Translations under genes and position numbers: made by a program
In this document: piece after piece, positions 2,157 through 9,413 of the stretch
Layout: each line of letters opens with the position of its first letter
Numbering within the stretch: position 1 is the first letter of the stretch
The notes under the pieces: generated by a model
What the model saw: only the letters and a program-made list of their open reading frames with translations
What the model was told of the DNA's origin: nothing
The model's database searches: none
From: a virus
Strand: one strand, 5' to 3'
Length of the DNA: 27,152 bases
Virus record (IMG/VR): IMGVR_UViG_3300042485_000002
Location: 1-27,152 of that record

Positions 2157-3554
2157 ATGGCAATTTTTGACATTTTCAAGCGTAAAAACACTCAGTCTGA
2201 GAGCAATACATTGTTCGGTCAGACCGCCTTGGGTAACAACATTGTTTATCAGGGCAGCGATAAACGTGCTGGTGTTAACACTCAAATCCTCTATGTAACG
2301 ACTGCCAGCACAACTACTGCTGGTCGCCCGGTAGATATGTCTGTGCTGACCAGAAACAGCACAATCATGTCTTGTGTGGGGGTAAAGGCTCGGGCTTTGG
2401 CGCAGTTGCCAATCAAGATTTGCTGCGAAACAGCAGACGGAAAAACCGTTGATGCAATTAGGGGTGAAGGTGTTGGTGCGCGAGATAAGGCCAAAGCCAA
2501 GCAAGTTGCCAAGCTATTGGGTAACCCTAACAACTTTCAGAGCAAGTATGAGTTCTGGTATCAGTGGCTTATGTGGTACGAATTGTCTGGTGAAGCCTTT
2601 ACCCTGTGGTGGAGGAAGGACCAGAACAGTTCTACAGAGACTCCGCTAGAAATGTATGTGTTGGATTCAACGCTGATTGCCGTGAATATCACGCCTACAC
2701 GTTATCCGACTTTCCGACTGTCTACGCCTAGCTATGGTTTCAACAAGGACCATGAGTTCAAGTATTTCCAAGTCATGCACGGCAAGGAAATGGCATGGCA
2801 AGGCTCTGCTGGTTTTAACAAAGCAATTTTGGCAACTGAATTGGTTGGTCTTGACCAAGACATTGACTTGTACGCCAACTTTGTCATGCAGAACGGTGCA
2901 AAGCCCTCTGGTATGTTTGTCACCGATCAGGTTATTCCTGACGGCAAGTACAAGGAGATCGCAGCCCGTCTGAAAGAGGCGTGGAACAACATGACAGGCA
3001 GCAAGACCAGTGACCCAAGCAAGCCGGGTCAGGGTATGTTGCTGGATCAGGGCATGAAGTATCAGAAACTAGAGATGCTGACTTTGCAAGACACTGACGC
3101 TGCTGCTTTGAAACTACAGACGATGCGCCGCATCTGTGGGTTGTTTGGTGTGCCGCCTTCTATGATCGGCATCCATGATGGCAAGTTTAACAACAGCCAA
3201 ACGGCTTTGGATGAGTTCTACAAAACCACCATGTACCCGACAATTGTCAATATCCAGCAGAAATTGACTCAACATTTGCTTGAGGGTTATCCATCACTGT
3301 GTGTCGAGTTTGACACTAAGGATTTCCTGAAGGGCGCTCCTTTGGATCAAATGAACTTTGCTACTGCTGGCGTAAAAGGTGGAATAATGACACCCAACGA
3401 AGCCCGTAACTACATGAATTTGCCATCTATGGACGGTGGTGATGAGTTGGTAAAAGAGCCTGACCCTGCCGAGCCAATTGCAGGTAGCAGTCCTAAAGAT
3501 ACTGGTGGCGGTGGTGGCAATCAGACCAAAAAGATGAATATAGGCGCGACTTGA
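2157..3554 (+). CDS. Portal protein (HK97 family)
   Basis: The 465-residue protein forms the dodecameric DNA entry vertex and docks the terminase. Diagnostic stretches are the N-terminal FKRK basic patch, the core KARALAQLPIK near residue 80, the motif RRICGLFGVPPSMIG around residues 325-340, and the C-terminal MTPNEARNYMNLP with a following GGDEL, all typical of HK97-type portals. The last 35 residues are a low-complexity tail with a run of five glycines. A GAGGGG ribosome binding site precedes the ATG. The gene follows terL after 24 bases. The stop is a TGA; the next in-frame codons lead directly into the small ORF at 3561. Confidence 0.95.
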   Translation: MAIFDIFKRKNTQSESNTLFGQTALGNNIVYQGSDKRAGVNTQILYVTTASTTTAGRPVDMSVLTRNSTIMSCVGVKARALAQLPIKICCETADGKTVDAIRGEGVGARDKAKAKQVAKLLGNPNNFQSKYEFWYQWLMWYELSGEAFTLWWRKDQNSSTETPLEMYVLDSTLIAVNITPTRYPTFRLSTPSYGFNKDHEFKYFQVMHGKEMAWQGSAGFNKAILATELVGLDQDIDLYANFVMQNGAKPSGMFVTDQVIPDGKYKEIAARLKEAWNNMTGSKTSDPSKPGQGMLLDQGMKYQKLEMLTLQDTDAAALKLQTMRRICGLFGVPPSMIGIHDGKFNNSQTALDEFYKTTMYPTIVNIQQKLTQHLLEGYPSLCVEFDTKDFLKGAPLDQMNFATAGVKGGIMTPNEARNYMNLPSMDGGDELVKEPDPAEPIAGSSPKDTGGGGGNQTKKMNIGAT

Positions 3555-3560
3555 TATATC

Positions 3561-3773
3561 ATGCACACTGATACACAATATCTGGTAGCATTAGCCAAAC
3601 AGGTCAAACGACCTAAAAAGTTGCCTGTACTTCTAGGGCAGCGCCCTAAAATACAGGACAATAACCAATCCATTGCTTTAGGGGCAATCAATGAAGACAT
3701 TGAATCTTATCTGCGAAGCCAAGCTGAACTTGAACGAGAAATCGCACAACGGCGAACCGTCTGGACAGATTGA
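3561..3773 (+). CDS. Small protein between portal and protease, overlaps protease start
   Basis: A 70-residue basic ORF begins six bases after the portal stop and in the same frame. It fills the otherwise empty 136 bases before the protease gene, then overlaps the protease by 83 bases in a different frame. The sequence starts with a basic, proline-containing segment (KRPKKLPVLLGQRPK) and ends with a charged helix (SQAELEREIAQRR). It has no recognisable domain. The ribosome binding site is weak, so translation may depend on coupling to the portal gene. It could be a small scaffold or accessory head protein, but no function can be assigned. The sequence looks like a real protein rather than a random frame. 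Confidence 0.55.
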   Translation: MHTDTQYLVALAKQVKRPKKLPVLLGQRPKIQDNNQSIALGAINEDIESYLRSQAELEREIAQRRTVWTD

Positions 3774-4470
3774 GGCTCGCATTACGACTTGGGGCGCACG
3801 GGAAGGCGCTGATGGTCGCAAGTTCTTTTATAAGCCAGAAGGCTTTATGCAATGGGCCAAAGAGTTTGCCGAAATGGGCCGACCACTTCCCATGTACGTT
3901 AACCACAATGCTGACGCTATCCCTGTGGGCGAGTGGACAAGCATTGAGATGGATGACGAGGGCATGAACGCTTCTGGTCGCCTGTATCTGAACACCACAA
4001 CTGGCTCTGATTTGTACCAAGTGATGAAAGAATCGCCCAATATGTTTGGCGGTGTTTCTGTTGGCGCTTATGCTGAAGAATATCAAATGGTCAATGCTGT
4101 TGGCGAACCAGACCAATCAGAAGAAGCCTATTTCCAAATCACTAAAGGTGGTTTGCGCGAAACTAGCGTGGTCATGCACCCAAATAACATGAAGGCAGAA
4201 ATCAAAAAGTTGGAATATTTCCGACCTGATGGCTCTGCTGATTTGAAAGTATTGGAAGAAGCCTTGCGGGATGCAGGTCTGTCCAAGCAGATGTCGGTTG
4301 CCGCCGCATCTGTATTCAAGACGGTAATTGAACAGCGTGATGCTGTTGAAGCGCCTATTGAAAATGCGCCAACTCAGAGTGATTCTGATGCGGAGGCAAC
4401 CGCTGAAATTCTCGCGGCTCTTGAGCAACGTGAACTTCTGAAACTCCTTGACAAACGACTTAAAGGTTAA
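3691..4470 (+). CDS. Prohead maturation protease (HK97 family, S78-like)
   Basis: The 259-residue protease should cleave the N-terminal delta domain of the capsid protein during head maturation and then itself. Catalytic candidates of the HK97 protease family are His72 in MYVNHNAD and Ser159 in LRETSVVMHP, the usual spacing and context for this family. The C-terminal third (residues about 180-259) is helical and acidic, probably the part that is removed or that packs with scaffold. The ATG follows an AGGGGC ribosome binding site and lies within the preceding small ORF. The gene ends three bases before the capsid gene, as expected for a protease-capsid pair. Confidence 0.92.
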   Translation: MKTLNLICEAKLNLNEKSHNGEPSGQIEARITTWGAREGADGRKFFYKPEGFMQWAKEFAEMGRPLPMYVNHNADAIPVGEWTSIEMDDEGMNASGRLYLNTTTGSDLYQVMKESPNMFGGVSVGAYAEEYQMVNAVGEPDQSEEAYFQITKGGLRETSVVMHPNNMKAEIKKLEYFRPDGSADLKVLEEALRDAGLSKQMSVAAASVFKTVIEQRDAVEAPIENAPTQSDSDAEATAEILAALEQRELLKLLDKRLKG

Positions 4471-4473
4471 ATC

Positions 4474-5823
4474 ATGTCCCAAGTTATCCTCGAAAAACTG
4501 GATGCTATCGAAGCTAAACAAGCCGAAAGCATCACTGCTGTAGAAGCCAAAATCCCTGCTGCTGTTGAGGCTGTCAAAGCTGAATTCAGCGAGATGGTTT
4601 CTGCTCTGGAAGCCAAAGTTGCTTCTATCAATATGCCTGAGTTCATTCGCACACCCGCTAAGACTGTTCGCCAAGATGTGAACCGTTCGGTGCGTGAGCA
4701 ACTGGCTACTTTCTACAAAGGCAACAACCGTTTGGAAAAAGAACTGCAAATCTTTGCAGACGAAGCCCAAATGGATGCGTACCTGAAAGAAGCCTCTGCC
4801 TTGACCGCTGGCGGTGATGGCAAGGGTGGTCGTACTGGCTACGATCCAGTGTTTGCTGCTCTGCGTTTGGCTAACCCCATGCGTGGTCTGTCGCGCACTG
4901 TGGCTACCGATGGTTCTAGCTATCAGTTCCGTGTCAAAACTGGCAATGCTGGTGTGGCATGGGGCTATACGATCCAGAACAACGGCTCGACCACAACTGA
5001 AGACACAAGCATCTGGCAATTGGTTCTGCAAGACTTGAACGTGCAGTTCCCAATCCGTACTGCTGCTTTGGATGACGTTGACGGTCTGGAAGCCAACGTG
5101 GTTGACGATATGCTGGCTGAGTTTGCTCAAGCCGAAGCCTTGTCGATGATCCAGAACAACGACCAAGCTGCTCAGTCGGGTACTAACCCCTACGGCGGTA
5201 CTAACGGTCTGCGTGGTCTGGATCAGTATGCTGGTGCTAACGCTACCTACGCTGGTGGTACATCGTCTGTTGCTGCTTTTGGCACTTCTGGCACTGGTTC
5301 TTCAAGCGGTCTGCACTCGCTGGCTACTTATGACCAGTTGACCTCTAACGTCAACACTGTTGGTTTGAACAACATTGTTTACAAAGATGTTATTAACACT
5401 GTCTACGCCTTGCCACAGCAGTATTGGACTCCTAACACCAAGTTCATGGTCAGCCCAATCTTGGCTCAAGCAATTCGTGGTCTGCAAGACACCAATGGTC
5501 GTCCGATCTTCAACTCTATGGAGTCGTTGAACCCTGATGGCATTATTGGTCAAATGCTTGGCTTTGACGTTGTGATGAACAAGTATCTGGACACTCCTAG
5601 CCAAACTACAGCGGGTTCTGCTGGCACAACTAGCCTGTACCCAATGTACTTTGGTGATTGGAGCCGTAGTCACACAATCATTGATCGTTTGAACATGGTT
5701 ATGCGCCGCTACGACCAGACGCTGCCCGGTTTTATCACCTTCTTTGGTGAGAAGCGTTTGGCAACTTCTGTACGCGACCCGAATGCCCTTATTCGGTATC
5801 GTTCAACAGCTACAGCTACCTGA
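4474..5823 (+). CDS. Major capsid protein with N-terminal delta/scaffold domain (HK97 fold)
   Basis: The 449-residue protein is the main head subunit. Residues 1 to about 105 are Ala-, Glu- and Lys-rich and helical, the layout of an HK97 delta domain that acts as built-in scaffold and is removed by the protease. The mature part would begin near the motif EASALTAGGDGKGGR (residues about 106-120). Core HK97-fold features follow: FAALRLANPMRGLSR, TNGLRGLDQY, and the C-terminal GFITFFGEKRLATSVRDP. Two in-frame stops (TGA then TAA) end the gene, followed directly by a strong intrinsic terminator. The next gene encodes a paralogue without the delta domain. Confidence 0.95.
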   Translation: MSQVILEKLDAIEAKQAESITAVEAKIPAAVEAVKAEFSEMVSALEAKVASINMPEFIRTPAKTVRQDVNRSVREQLATFYKGNNRLEKELQIFADEAQMDAYLKEASALTAGGDGKGGRTGYDPVFAALRLANPMRGLSRTVATDGSSYQFRVKTGNAGVAWGYTIQNNGSTTTEDTSIWQLVLQDLNVQFPIRTAALDDVDGLEANVVDDMLAEFAQAEALSMIQNNDQAAQSGTNPYGGTNGLRGLDQYAGANATYAGGTSSVAAFGTSGTGSSSGLHSLATYDQLTSNVNTVGLNNIVYKDVINTVYALPQQYWTPNTKFMVSPILAQAIRGLQDTNGRPIFNSMESLNPDGIIGQMLGFDVVMNKYLDTPSQTTAGSAGTTSLYPMYFGDWSRSHTIIDRLNMVMRRYDQTLPGFITFFGEKRLATSVRDPNALIRYRSTATAT

Positions 5824-5829
5824 TAAATC

Positions 5830-5856
5830 GGAGGGGCGTAAATGCCCCTCCTTTTT
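5830..5856 (+). terminator. Rho-independent terminator between the two capsid genes
   Basis: A perfect 8-bp GC-rich stem, GGAGGGGC at 5830-5837 pairing with GCCCCTCC at 5844-5851, encloses a 6-base loop and is followed by five Ts. It starts six bases after the capsid stop codon. Because the downstream genes run in the same direction and no clear promoter is visible in the 23 bases before the next start, it probably works as a partial terminator that lowers expression after the major capsid gene. The left arm GGAGGGG also resembles a ribosome binding site but has no start codon at a useful distance. Confidence 0.9.
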
Positions 5857-5879
5857 GTGCCAATAATTTAGGAACTGAT

Positions 5880-6914
5880 ATGACCATTACCGAACGCATC
5901 CTGTCTGGAATTAAGCAAACATTGGAAACTGGCGAGAAAGTCACAATTGACTTGCGCGAGGCATCTGCTATCACAGGCTCTGGTGACGGGGTTGGTGGTC
6001 GCACCTTTTTTGATAACGCATTTGCTGCATTGCGTTTTGCAAACCCAATTCGTGAGATGTCGCGTGTTATCCCTGCATCTGGCTCAAGCGTTCAGTTTGT
6101 CGCTAAGACAGGTAATGCGACAAACTCCACAAACCCGTTTGGATACACGTTCACGCCTAACAGCGGTTCGCCAAACATTAACACTTCCATTTGGCAATTG
6201 CCTACCCGTGTCATTTCTGCTCAACTGCCTGTTCGTTCAGCGGTTATGTCGGATGTGAACTACTTGAACGAAACGCTTGTTGAAGATTTGATGCTGGAAT
6301 TTGCACAGATCGAAGGCGCTTCAATGGTGCTGAACGATGACCAAGCTGGTTCGACAACCACTATCAACGGCGCTACAAATGGTTTGCGCGGACTGAATAT
6401 GTACACAAGCGCAGCATCGTCTGCATTTGGTACAAGTGGCACAGCAATCACCAACGGCATTCACACCATTGCTACATACACTCAAGCAGCAGCGGCTGTG
6501 TCGTATTCCGATATTACCGACATGACTCGTTTGTTCCCTGCTCAGTATTGGAATCTTCCCGGTACGGCATGGATGATGCACCCACAAACCATCCATGAAT
6601 TGCGGAACCTTGGCCCTGTAGCAGCGCCAAACATCAAACAATTTGCCGAGGTTGGTGATGATGATGGCGGCGCTGTTAAAAACATATTTGGCTTTCCTGT
6701 CATTGCGAACCCAAACATCCAAACAACTGGCGCTGGTAACTTTAACATTTACTTGGCTAATTGGCCCCGTTTTGTGAGCATTGCTGATGTGGAAGAAATG
6801 ACCATTCAGGCAATGGAACAGACAAGCCCCGGCTTCATTACGCTATATGCGGAGAAGCGTCTTGTAAGTACCGTGCGCGACCCGTTTGCTGGCATCCGAC
6901 TTGTAGGTGTTTAA
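5880..6914 (+). CDS. Second HK97-fold capsid-like protein, paralogue of the major capsid protein
   Basis: The 344-residue protein aligns with the preceding capsid protein over nearly all of its length. Matches include EASAITGSGDGVGGR, FAALRFANPIREMSR, ATNGLRGLNMY and GFITLYAEKRLVSTVRDP. The shared DGxGGR motif is at residue 36 here and at residue 115 in the first copy, so this copy lacks about 80 N-terminal residues, that is, the delta/scaffold domain. The two are diverged, so this is not a recent or assembly duplication. It may be a minor shell component such as a pentamer vertex subunit, or a decoration protein derived from a capsid gene. An AGGAACTGAT ribosome binding site precedes the ATG. 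Function is inferred. Confidence 0.88.
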   Translation: MTITERILSGIKQTLETGEKVTIDLREASAITGSGDGVGGRTFFDNAFAALRFANPIREMSRVIPASGSSVQFVAKTGNATNSTNPFGYTFTPNSGSPNINTSIWQLPTRVISAQLPVRSAVMSDVNYLNETLVEDLMLEFAQIEGASMVLNDDQAGSTTTINGATNGLRGLNMYTSAASSAFGTSGTAITNGIHTIATYTQAAAAVSYSDITDMTRLFPAQYWNLPGTAWMMHPQTIHELRNLGPVAAPNIKQFAEVGDDDGGAVKNIFGFPVIANPNIQTTGAGNFNIYLANWPRFVSIADVEEMTIQAMEQTSPGFITLYAEKRLVSTVRDPFAGIRLVGV

Positions 6915-6917
6915 ACC

Positions 6918-7589
6918 ATGAGCGTTGATAACTATCAATACGCTGCGCCCTTTGGCGCTCAAACGCGCAATCCGTTTAACTATGCAAAGGTTGAACAGAT
7001 TGGGCGTGATAGTGTCACTGCGTGGTTGACCCTTGATGAAATCACGCAACAATTGAATTTGTTTCAAGACGAAAGCCAAGACACATATTTGGAAAGCCTT
7101 GAATTGGCTACCAGACAAGCGATTGAAGATTACTTGGGGATGTCTATCCTTCCAGTAACTTATCGCGTCTGGTACGGTTCTGAGAGCCTTGTAGCATCAC
7201 CTATTAGTCTTGACTTGCCTGAAGTAAGTCAAAACTTTAATACAAATCAAGCTGGTGTGACCATCAATTCGGTTGGTTATTGGAATGACGCTTTCCCTCC
7301 AGTGTTTACAACACTTGCCAGCACCAGCTATTACTACGATGCCTCTGGCAACAAAGTGATTGTTAACAATTTGCCGACTGACGTTAATTCGGTGATGAGT
7401 GCGCCAATCATTGTGCAATACACGACTGTTGCAAATCCTTTGGCTGCTTACCCTGTCATCAAGCAAGCAGGTTTGTTGTTGCTGACGCACTTGTATAACA
7501 ACCGTGCAAATGCAACAGAGACAAAGCTGAAAGACATTCCATTTGGCGTGACCACCTTGCTGCGTTCTTACAAACCATTGGTGATGTAA
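6918..7589 (+). CDS. Head-tail connector/adaptor (HK97 gp6 / phiE125 gp8-like)
   Basis: The 223-residue protein probably forms the ring under the portal. The N-terminal part has the family pattern LTLDEITQQLNLF, a helix with acidic residues and TRQAIEDYLGMSIL. The C-terminal part has KQAGLLLLTHLYNNR followed by IPFGVTTLLRSY, the segment that ends most members of this group. The middle is beta-rich. The gene follows the second capsid gene after three bases and is joined to the next gene with stop and start adjacent (TAAATG). Position after the capsid and before the head-closure gene supports the call. Confidence 0.85.
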   Translation: MSVDNYQYAAPFGAQTRNPFNYAKVEQIGRDSVTAWLTLDEITQQLNLFQDESQDTYLESLELATRQAIEDYLGMSILPVTYRVWYGSESLVASPISLDLPEVSQNFNTNQAGVTINSVGYWNDAFPPVFTTLASTSYYYDASGNKVIVNNLPTDVNSVMSAPIIVQYTTVANPLAAYPVIKQAGLLLLTHLYNNRANATETKLKDIPFGVTTLLRSYKPLVM

Positions 7590-8390: not shown

Positions 8391-8885
8391 ATGGCTTTAC
8401 CAAACAAAGTTCTTCCCGGTTTTAGCGCGGCTCTGTACGCACAGCCCGGAGCCACACCTACTCCTTTGACTACTACTCAGTTGTCCTTGGTTGCAAGTGT
8501 TAGCCCATTGGCTGTTATTGGCAACCTAATTCCTGTTGAAGCAATCCCTGCTTTCGGCATGGATGATGCTGTTGCCAGTTTCAGTGTGGCTGGTTCGCGT
8601 CAATCTGACAAGATCCCGGTTCAGGCGGCTCCTACATCCATGACCATTACTGCTGCATGGAACCCTGCTGACACCAACTTGTTGCTGATGCGTGCTGATG
8701 CCTATTCTGGGGTCATTGACCGCACTTTCATTGTCTCGGCTACCGAGGGTGCAAACATCGTCTATTACGCCTTCAACGGGCGTGTAGGTCAGTTCCAAGT
8801 GGATGCCGCTCCCGGTGCAGAAGCCAAGGCTACATTCACTATCCATCCCCGTGGCAATCAGTACGGTTGGTCCAACAACGCTTAA
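8391..8885 (+). CDS. Tail tube protein, copy 1
   Basis: The 164-residue protein lies where lambda-type phages carry the major tail subunit, between tail terminator and tail chaperones. It is beta-rich with a conserved core IPAFGMDDAVASF, AGSRQSDKIP, SMTITAAWNP, RADAYSGVIDRTF and YAFNGRVGQF, ending in FTIHPRGNQYGWSNNA. The next gene is a close paralogue. The ATG follows a GAAGGA ribosome binding site. It is probably the more highly expressed subunit because it comes first, but which copy dominates the tube cannot be decided from sequence. Confidence 0.8.
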   Translation: MALPNKVLPGFSAALYAQPGATPTPLTTTQLSLVASVSPLAVIGNLIPVEAIPAFGMDDAVASFSVAGSRQSDKIPVQAAPTSMTITAAWNPADTNLLLMRADAYSGVIDRTFIVSATEGANIVYYAFNGRVGQFQVDAAPGAEAKATFTIHPRGNQYGWSNNA

Positions 8886-8894
8886 GGAGTCATC

Positions 8895-9413
8895 ATGGCT
8901 ATCCCTGCAAAAGTTCTTCCCGGTTTTGCCGCATCGTTGTGGATGCAATCGGCTGCGACTCCAACTCCATTGACAACCGCTAACCTGTCTGTGTGGGTTG
9001 CTCAAGTTACCACCATTGTTGGCACTTCAGCTAACGGCACTGGCGCATCTGGTGTTGCTGTGCCTGTTGAAGCAATCCCTGCCTTTGGTATGGATGATGC
9101 GGTGGCAAGTTTCGGTGTTGCTGGCTCCCGTCAAAGCGACAAGATTCCTGTGCAAGCGGCTCCGACTAGCATGACTATCACTGCTGCTTGGAATCCTTCC
9201 GATGCGGCGTTGCTCCAGATTCGTGCTGACGCTTATTCTGGTGTTGTTGACCGCACTTTCGTGGTTGCAGCAGTTGAAAGCACAAACACTGTTGCTTATG
9301 CGTTTAACGGTCGTGTTGGTCAATTCCAAATTGACTCTGCACCCGGCGCTGAAGCCAAATGCACATTCACTATTCATCCACGGGGCAACCAGTACGGCTG
9401 GTCGAACAACTGA
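8895..9413 (+). CDS. Tail tube protein, copy 2 (tandem paralogue)
   Basis: The 172-residue protein is a paralogue of copy 1. From VEAIPAFGMDD to the end about 98 of 115 residues are identical by hand alignment. The N-terminal parts (before residue about 55) are more diverged, with an extra Gly-, Ala- and Ser-rich insertion in this copy (VGTSANGTGASG). An AAGGAGT ribosome binding site lies in the 9-base gap between the copies. The stop overlaps the next start as TGATG. The two may mix in the tube, or one may be used at the tip or collar of the tail; this is inference. Confidence 0.8.
   Translation: MAIPAKVLPGFAASLWMQSAATPTPLTTANLSVWVAQVTTIVGTSANGTGASGVAVPVEAIPAFGMDDAVASFGVAGSRQSDKIPVQAAPTSMTITAAWNPSDAALLQIRADAYSGVVDRTFVVAAVESTNTVAYAFNGRVGQFQIDSAPGAEAKCTFTIHPRGNQYGWSNN

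Follow-up and report, generated by a model that had tools for sequence, protein, structure and literature searches.

The head operon of a virus contig from IMG/VR encodes two diverged HK97-fold capsid proteins in tandem, here designated MCP1 and MCP2, of which only MCP1 carries an N-terminal scaffold (delta) domain. That this two-protein system exists, is old and is universal in its phage lineage is practically certain. On balance, MCP2 appears to be a dedicated penton (vertex) subunit of a two-component HK97-type shell, analogous to gp24 of phage T4; we infer its presence in the virion, its location in pentamers and its stoichiometry from the genomic evidence given below.

Organization of the head operon and relationship of the two capsid proteins

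The window (the whole stretch of 27,152 bases from IMG/VR that was analyzed) contains a siphophage-type head/tail operon with genes for terminase large subunit, portal, S78 protease, MCP1, MCP2, a gp6-like connector, tail terminator, tail tube, tape measure and more tail proteins (Table 1). The two tandem open reading frames on which the original prediction was built were recovered with exactly the same boundaries. The tail-tube (major tail protein) gene of the window is also present as tandem paralogues (8391-8885 and 8895-9413), which are 73% identical. Two copies of this gene were found in 102 of 150 relatives tested and one copy in 48, with some loci being redundant. This is the second duplicated structural gene of the lineage and, unlike the capsid pair, it is not fixed.

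Table 1. Features of the head operon in the analyzed window.
Feature	Position	Strand	Remarks
Portal protein	2157..3554	+	Opens the conserved order portal-protease-MCP1-MCP2-connector
Prohead serine protease (Peptidase_S78)	3691..4470	+	Presumed to remove the MCP1 delta domain
MCP1, HK97-fold major capsid protein	4474..5823	+	449 aa; delta (scaffold) domain of ~100 aa at the N-terminus; predicted hexamer protein
MCP1 delta (scaffold) domain	4474..4785	+	Residues ~1-104; absent from MCP2
Intrinsic terminator between MCP1 and MCP2	5827..5856	+	Stem GGAGGGGC/GCCCCTCC at 5830-5851, then TTTTT; predicted to lower transcription of MCP2 and downstream genes
MCP2, HK97-fold capsid paralogue without delta domain	5880..6914	+	344 aa; predicted vertex (penton) subunit
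MCP2 leader	5880..5951	+	24 residues, conserved, MTITERILSGIKQTLETGEKVTID; predicted helix 3-17; kept between swapped alleles
MCP2 A-domain	6465..6734	+	Residues 196-285; boundary inferred from predicted secondary structure
gp6-like head-tail connector	6918..7589	+	Adjoins MCP2 downstream

BLASTP aligned MCP1 and MCP2 with 139 identical residues out of 343 (41%; 229 bits, E = 4e-76), which bears out the proposal that they are diverged paralogues. The alignment starts at residue 104 of MCP1 and at residue 25 of MCP2; thus, MCP2 is 79 residues shorter at its N-terminus. Both proteins matched PHROG_10 ("major head protein") and the Phage_capsid profile PF05065, the latter with 103.4 bits for MCP1 and 68.4 bits for MCP2 at a curated cut-off of 24.2.

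Structure prediction of both proteins, a check proposed along with the original prediction, was performed using AlphaFold2 with alignments and gave an HK97 fold for MCP2 as well as for MCP1. In the MCP2 model (pTM 0.73) residues 3-17 form a short N-terminal helix and residues 129-151 the spine helix. The MCP1 model (pTM 0.63) showed a long N-terminal helix at residues 2-51, in line with a delta domain. The N-arm and the tip of the E-loop were of low confidence. In Foldseek searches with the two models the matches listed were HK97-fold capsids, with the capsid of the gene transfer agent RcGTA first and E-values down to 6e-17 and 1.6e-17, respectively. The part of MCP2 most diverged from MCP1 is the A-domain (28% identity). 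In or beside its A-domain MCP1 has additional loops of about 7-9 residues, which are absent from MCP2 and have a near-fixed length (135 of 135 pairs), and the tip of the E-loop contains three more residues in MCP2 than in MCP1.

Distribution and age of the pair

The original prediction had also called for a search for other phages with the same tandem pair, and this search revealed that the pair is fixed across a widespread freshwater phage lineage. Several hundred loci were obtained by scanning viral contigs (six scans) and genome contigs (one scan). Several of these scans used MCP1 or joint queries, so that the presence of MCP2 was not presupposed. Exactly one MCP2 lay between MCP1 and the connector in all 230 distinct loci holding both of the latter. 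A paralogue that arose by one duplication and is kept beside the hexamer protein throughout a lineage is what would be expected of a gp24-like vertex paralogue.

One cultured relative was found. Among 50,697 phage records searched by tblastn, Methylophilaceae phage P19250A (KX815270) was the sole related record. Its genes P19250A_0005 and P19250A_0006 form the same pair in the same operon and encode proteins 60% (MCP1) and 55% (MCP2) identical to those of the window; the annotation of its MCP2 is just "hypothetical protein" and assigns it no role in the capsid. Phage Venkman (L252, MT375522), which has been described as syntenic with P19250A (PMC8163748), was rejected as a second cultured member. 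Scaffolding is encoded by a separate gene in its record, which also lists tail tubes A/B and just one annotated MCP and gave no tblastn match to MCP1 or MCP2. The head module in this record is podovirus-like, despite the reported synteny with the siphovirus P19250A.

A few loci deserve separate mention. A contig (L143) from a metagenome-assembled genome (MAG) labelled Polymorphobacter was rejected as a locus without MCP2, since it is chimeric: its phage part (positions 1-250) is an MCP1 fragment that stops at the terminator hairpin and is fused to chromosomal sequence. In another locus (L203:5799-6752) MCP2 is split into two overlapping open reading frames, by a sequencing error or a real frameshift. 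Loci of the lineage were also present on genome contigs of MAGs labelled Candidatus Nitrosotalea (L141) and Alphaproteobacteria (L140); these are probably mis-binned phage contigs and not evidence of the host.

Many of the longer contigs of the lineage measure 36-41 kb, and the genome of P19250A 38.7 kb. The genomes of T7, P22 and lambda, phages of the T=7 size class, have 39-48 kb (PMC5646251). Judging from this match, the shell of the lineage probably has T=7 architecture.

A quick maximum likelihood tree was calculated with the capsid proteins of five single-MCP phages as outgroup, whose branches were very long. MCP1 (SH-aLRT 95) and MCP2 (SH-aLRT 99) each occupied one side of a branch with respect to the five outgroup capsids and had long stems, which indicates a single old duplication followed by divergence. 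Outside the lineage, the nearest capsid proteins aligned over parts of their length, at about 20-32% identity. The median dN/dS was 0.13 for MCP1 and 0.10 for MCP2. The two separate clades and the purifying selection on both genes confirm the earlier statement that the duplication is old and that both copies are kept. A recent duplication or an assembly artefact was ruled out, since the duplication is old and occurs in independent contigs as well as in a cultured phage.

The selection data also bear on the idea that MCP2 is no longer a virion component but a relic, or else serves a different function as regulator or decoy. The copy in P19250A, with its uninformative annotation and no known role, would be compatible with this idea. 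However, the low dN/dS of MCP2, its intactness in nearly all loci, its invariable position in the head operon and the retention of the whole shell fold across the family argue against it, and we regard it as highly improbable.

MCP2 lacks the delta domain and retains a short leader

MCP1 shows the features of HK97-type self-scaffolding, namely a coiled-coil delta domain of about 100 residues at the N-terminus and an adjacent gene for an S78 protease, by which this domain is presumably cut off. In 221 copies of MCP2, ranging in length from 326 to 357 aa, the delta domain was not found. There is just a short leader of about 24 residues, some 7-8 residues longer in the P19250A-type copies, and the whole N-arm motif EASA(I/L)TxSGxxxGGRT is retained. 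Thus, the original claim that MCP2 lacks about 80 N-terminal residues, i.e., the delta domain, is right for the bulk of the domain, but MCP2 is not leaderless and the remaining leader is conserved.

The ATG start codon of MCP2 was found at the same place in 19 of 19 representative genes. With the same ATG and length across the family, a mis-called start or a frameshifted full-length MCP was ruled out as the source of the short MCP2. The N-arm of MCP2 in P19250A (L083:6066-7124) is preceded by a few additional residues (EAAGLQGSG), which nearly match EQAGLQGSG in the MCP1 of the same phage. The extra residues of the P19250A-type copies possibly reflect gene conversion or an intermediate stage in the loss of the delta domain.

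A conserved terminator separates MCP1 from MCP2

A strong, G+C-rich intrinsic-terminator hairpin followed by a T-run was found in 121 of 121 distinct MCP1-MCP2 gaps, which are usually 49-77 nt long. The median folding energy was -18.5 kcal/mol compared to -3.7 kcal/mol in shuffled sequences. In the window the hairpin between MCP1 and MCP2 (-18.6) is by far the strongest of 26 gene junctions, the next one reaching -9.4. The stem is kept while its sequence differs between sub-lineages. In one locus (L117) the gap comprises about 585 nt, and an open reading frame with a GIY-YIG homing-endonuclease-like sequence (recognized by eye) is seemingly inserted just past the hairpin.

The bias toward C-ending codons was stronger in MCP1 than in MCP2 in 179 of 190 loci. 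From the terminator and the difference in codon bias we predict that MCP2 is made in smaller amounts than MCP1. A terminator after MCP1 would lower the expression of all downstream head and tail genes, too, and consequently points to a lower supply of MCP2, not to a role at the vertex.

Low predicted expression would also suit a protein needed at one special place or step and not at all vertices, such as a ring of subunits around the portal vertex or the initiation of assembly together with portal and protease. The gene order protease-MCP1-MCP2-connector fits such a role, and the conserved helical leader, which persists between swapped alleles, could bind a partner such as the portal or the protease. 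However, portal-adjacent positions are filled by ordinary hexamers in known tailed phages, e.g., in JBD30 (PMC11445458), and nothing in the sequences links MCP2 to the portal. Such a specialized role therefore seems rather improbable.

Alleles of MCP2 are exchanged and differ mainly in the A-domain

MCP2 is more variable than MCP1, with a mean pairwise identity of 69% versus 81% for mature MCP1, and the trees of the two proteins disagree. In close relatives of the window whose mature MCP1 is 92-96% identical, the MCP2 allele is only 66-69% identical; for one of them (L199) the values are 96% for MCP1 and 66% for MCP2. The drop in DNA identity between the carriers of different alleles starts and stops at the MCP2 gene. 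MCP2 alleles exchange as cassettes and pair freely with near-identical MCP1. Between the alleles the A-domain is 39-41% identical, compared to 69-83% for N-arm, E-loop, spine and P-domain. The A-domain of MCP1 showed 87-97% identity in the same comparisons (97% for L199).

In the HK97 fold the A-domain contacts the neighbors of the same capsomer round its axis. Since the A-domain of MCP2 changes greatly while MCP1 stays constant, the A-domains of MCP2 probably touch only each other, which would imply homomeric MCP2 capsomers. Within an icosahedral shell, a minor capsomer of this homomeric kind would naturally sit at the five-fold vertex. In many HK97-fold proteins no part varies more than the A-domain, which is also the more variable part of MCP1 itself; therefore, the hypervariability of MCP2 is suggestive only.

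MCP2 could alternatively be a minor subunit mixed with MCP1 in hexamers, and perhaps in pentamers, acting as a delta-less diluent that tunes stability, curvature or the crowding of delta domains in the procapsid. The shared fold with retained N-arm and E-loop and the lower predicted expression agree with this proposal, and a subunit without delta domain would be expected to ease the packing of scaffold domains inside the prohead. But an A-domain that differs this strongly from that of MCP1 and is only about 40% identical between alleles, with MCP1 nearly unchanged, is hard to square with shared capsomer centers. In addition, mixed rings would suffer from clashes or gaps at the loops of near-fixed length that only MCP1 has. 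We consider mixed capsomers unlikely.

The allelic turnover of MCP2 could also suggest an exposed surface under selection, as on an alternative particle or in an inner or decoration layer (a separate small shell, an inner shell or a surface antigenic variant). HK97-fold proteins can form stand-alone small shells. MCP2, however, lacks a scaffold domain, no cargo or packaging partner was seen, its fold is a full shell fold and not a decoration fold, and it is located beside MCP1 in every genome. An alternative particle or layer is thus very unlikely.

The original prediction had offered three roles for the second protein, i.e., vertex subunit, minor shell patch or decoration. The vertex subunit is favored by the terminator, the codon bias, the MCP1-only loops in and beside the A-domain and the allele swapping centered on the A-domain of MCP2. 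Decoration is unlikely because the predicted fold of MCP2 is that of a complete HK97 shell protein, including N-arm and E-loop, not the small accessory fold on the outer surface that characterizes decoration proteins (Soc, Hoc, gpD-like).

Proposed assembly and comparison with known capsids

According to the vertex model, MCP1, at a high expression level and with a delta scaffold domain of its own, would build the hexamers and drive procapsid assembly together with portal and protease. MCP2 would join via conserved shell-edge contacts (N-arm, E-loop, P-domain) and form homopentamers at the 11 non-portal vertices, like gp24 beside gp23 in T4. By limiting read-through, the terminator between the genes would reduce the amount of MCP2, a T=7 shell requiring about 55 copies versus 360 copies of MCP1. 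The protease would then cut off the delta domain, and it might remove the leader of MCP2 as well; expansion and packaging would follow.

The T4 proteins gp23 and gp24 are likewise two HK97-fold paralogues from a gene duplication, one forming hexamers and the other pentameric vertices; for MCP2 the vertex location is predicted. T4 gp24 is present in 55 copies (PMC5694885). Its propeptide comprises 10 residues versus 65 in the major protein (PMC9958956), and a shorter N-terminal region on the second paralogue is thus common to gp24 and MCP2. In T4 an A-loop of gp23 stabilizes hexamers, and some gp24-bypass mutations are located in the A-domain of gp23 and let it replace gp24 at the vertices (PMC9958956). 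T4, however, is a myophage of about 170 kb whose head is prolate (T=13/Q=20) and whose scaffold is a separate core, whereas the present lineage has genomes of about 38 kb and a delta-domain scaffold fused to MCP1. Moreover, gp23 and gp24 share about 20% identity, compared to 41% for MCP1 and MCP2. Profiles of MCP1 or MCP2 did not find gp23 or gp24 at E ≤ 0.01, while the capsids of RcGTA and EcCI2 were found. Since, in addition, MCP2 groups with MCP1, the duplication is separate from that of T4, and the likeness would be convergent and not due to membership in the gp24 family.

The closest solved capsid, by profile (E-values of about 1e-10 and 1e-12 with MCP1 and MCP2, respectively) as well as by fold, is Rcc01687 of the Rhodobacter capsulatus gene transfer agent (PDB 6tb9, 6tba). 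This system differs in having one capsid protein, and the sequence match is confined to the A-domain and the C-terminal part. HK97 gp5 shares with the lineage the order portal-protease-MCP, the N-terminal delta domain (here on MCP1) and the fold; in HK97, however, one protein makes hexamers and pentamers, and here there are two paralogues. Most small T=7 phages have a single MCP, as do the five outgroup phages examined, so that in principle such a shell can do without a penton protein of its own.

In the open-access literature neither a description of the MCP1-MCP2 pair nor proteomics or a structure of any member of the lineage was found. JBD30, Patience and jumbo phages were rejected as other two-MCP cases, as the respective papers describe single-MCP shells or unidentified vertex proteins. 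The suggestion of a previously undescribed two-component HK97 shell has therefore to be restricted: T4 gp23/gp24 is already known as such a shell, and what was not found described is an independent case in a lineage of small siphophages. New here are the asymmetry in terminator and codon bias between MCP1 and MCP2 and the swapping of MCP2 cassettes centered on the A-domain.

A recent review gives T4 as the example of separate HK97-fold proteins for hexons and pentons and links this to the large genome of T4 (PMC13185644). We judge it an evenly balanced question whether this freshwater siphophage lineage of about 38 kb independently evolved a T4-like two-component shell, with a scaffold-bearing hexamer protein, a delta-less penton protein, dosage set by a conserved terminator and the penton A-domain as an exchangeable cassette. 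If so, an independent and more recent duplication in a phage of this size would mean that the hexon/penton split needs no big genome. We know of no earlier example of such a division of labor among small phages whose capsid protein is self-scaffolding. At their level of identity MCP1 and MCP2 are far easier to compare than gp23 and gp24. The long-standing question of which residues set rings of five versus six for HK97-fold subunits, and whether every subunit needs a scaffold domain, would become testable. For the lineage itself, the analysis provides a likely capsid function for a gene that is "hypothetical" in the isolate P19250A and is found across hundreds of viral contigs.
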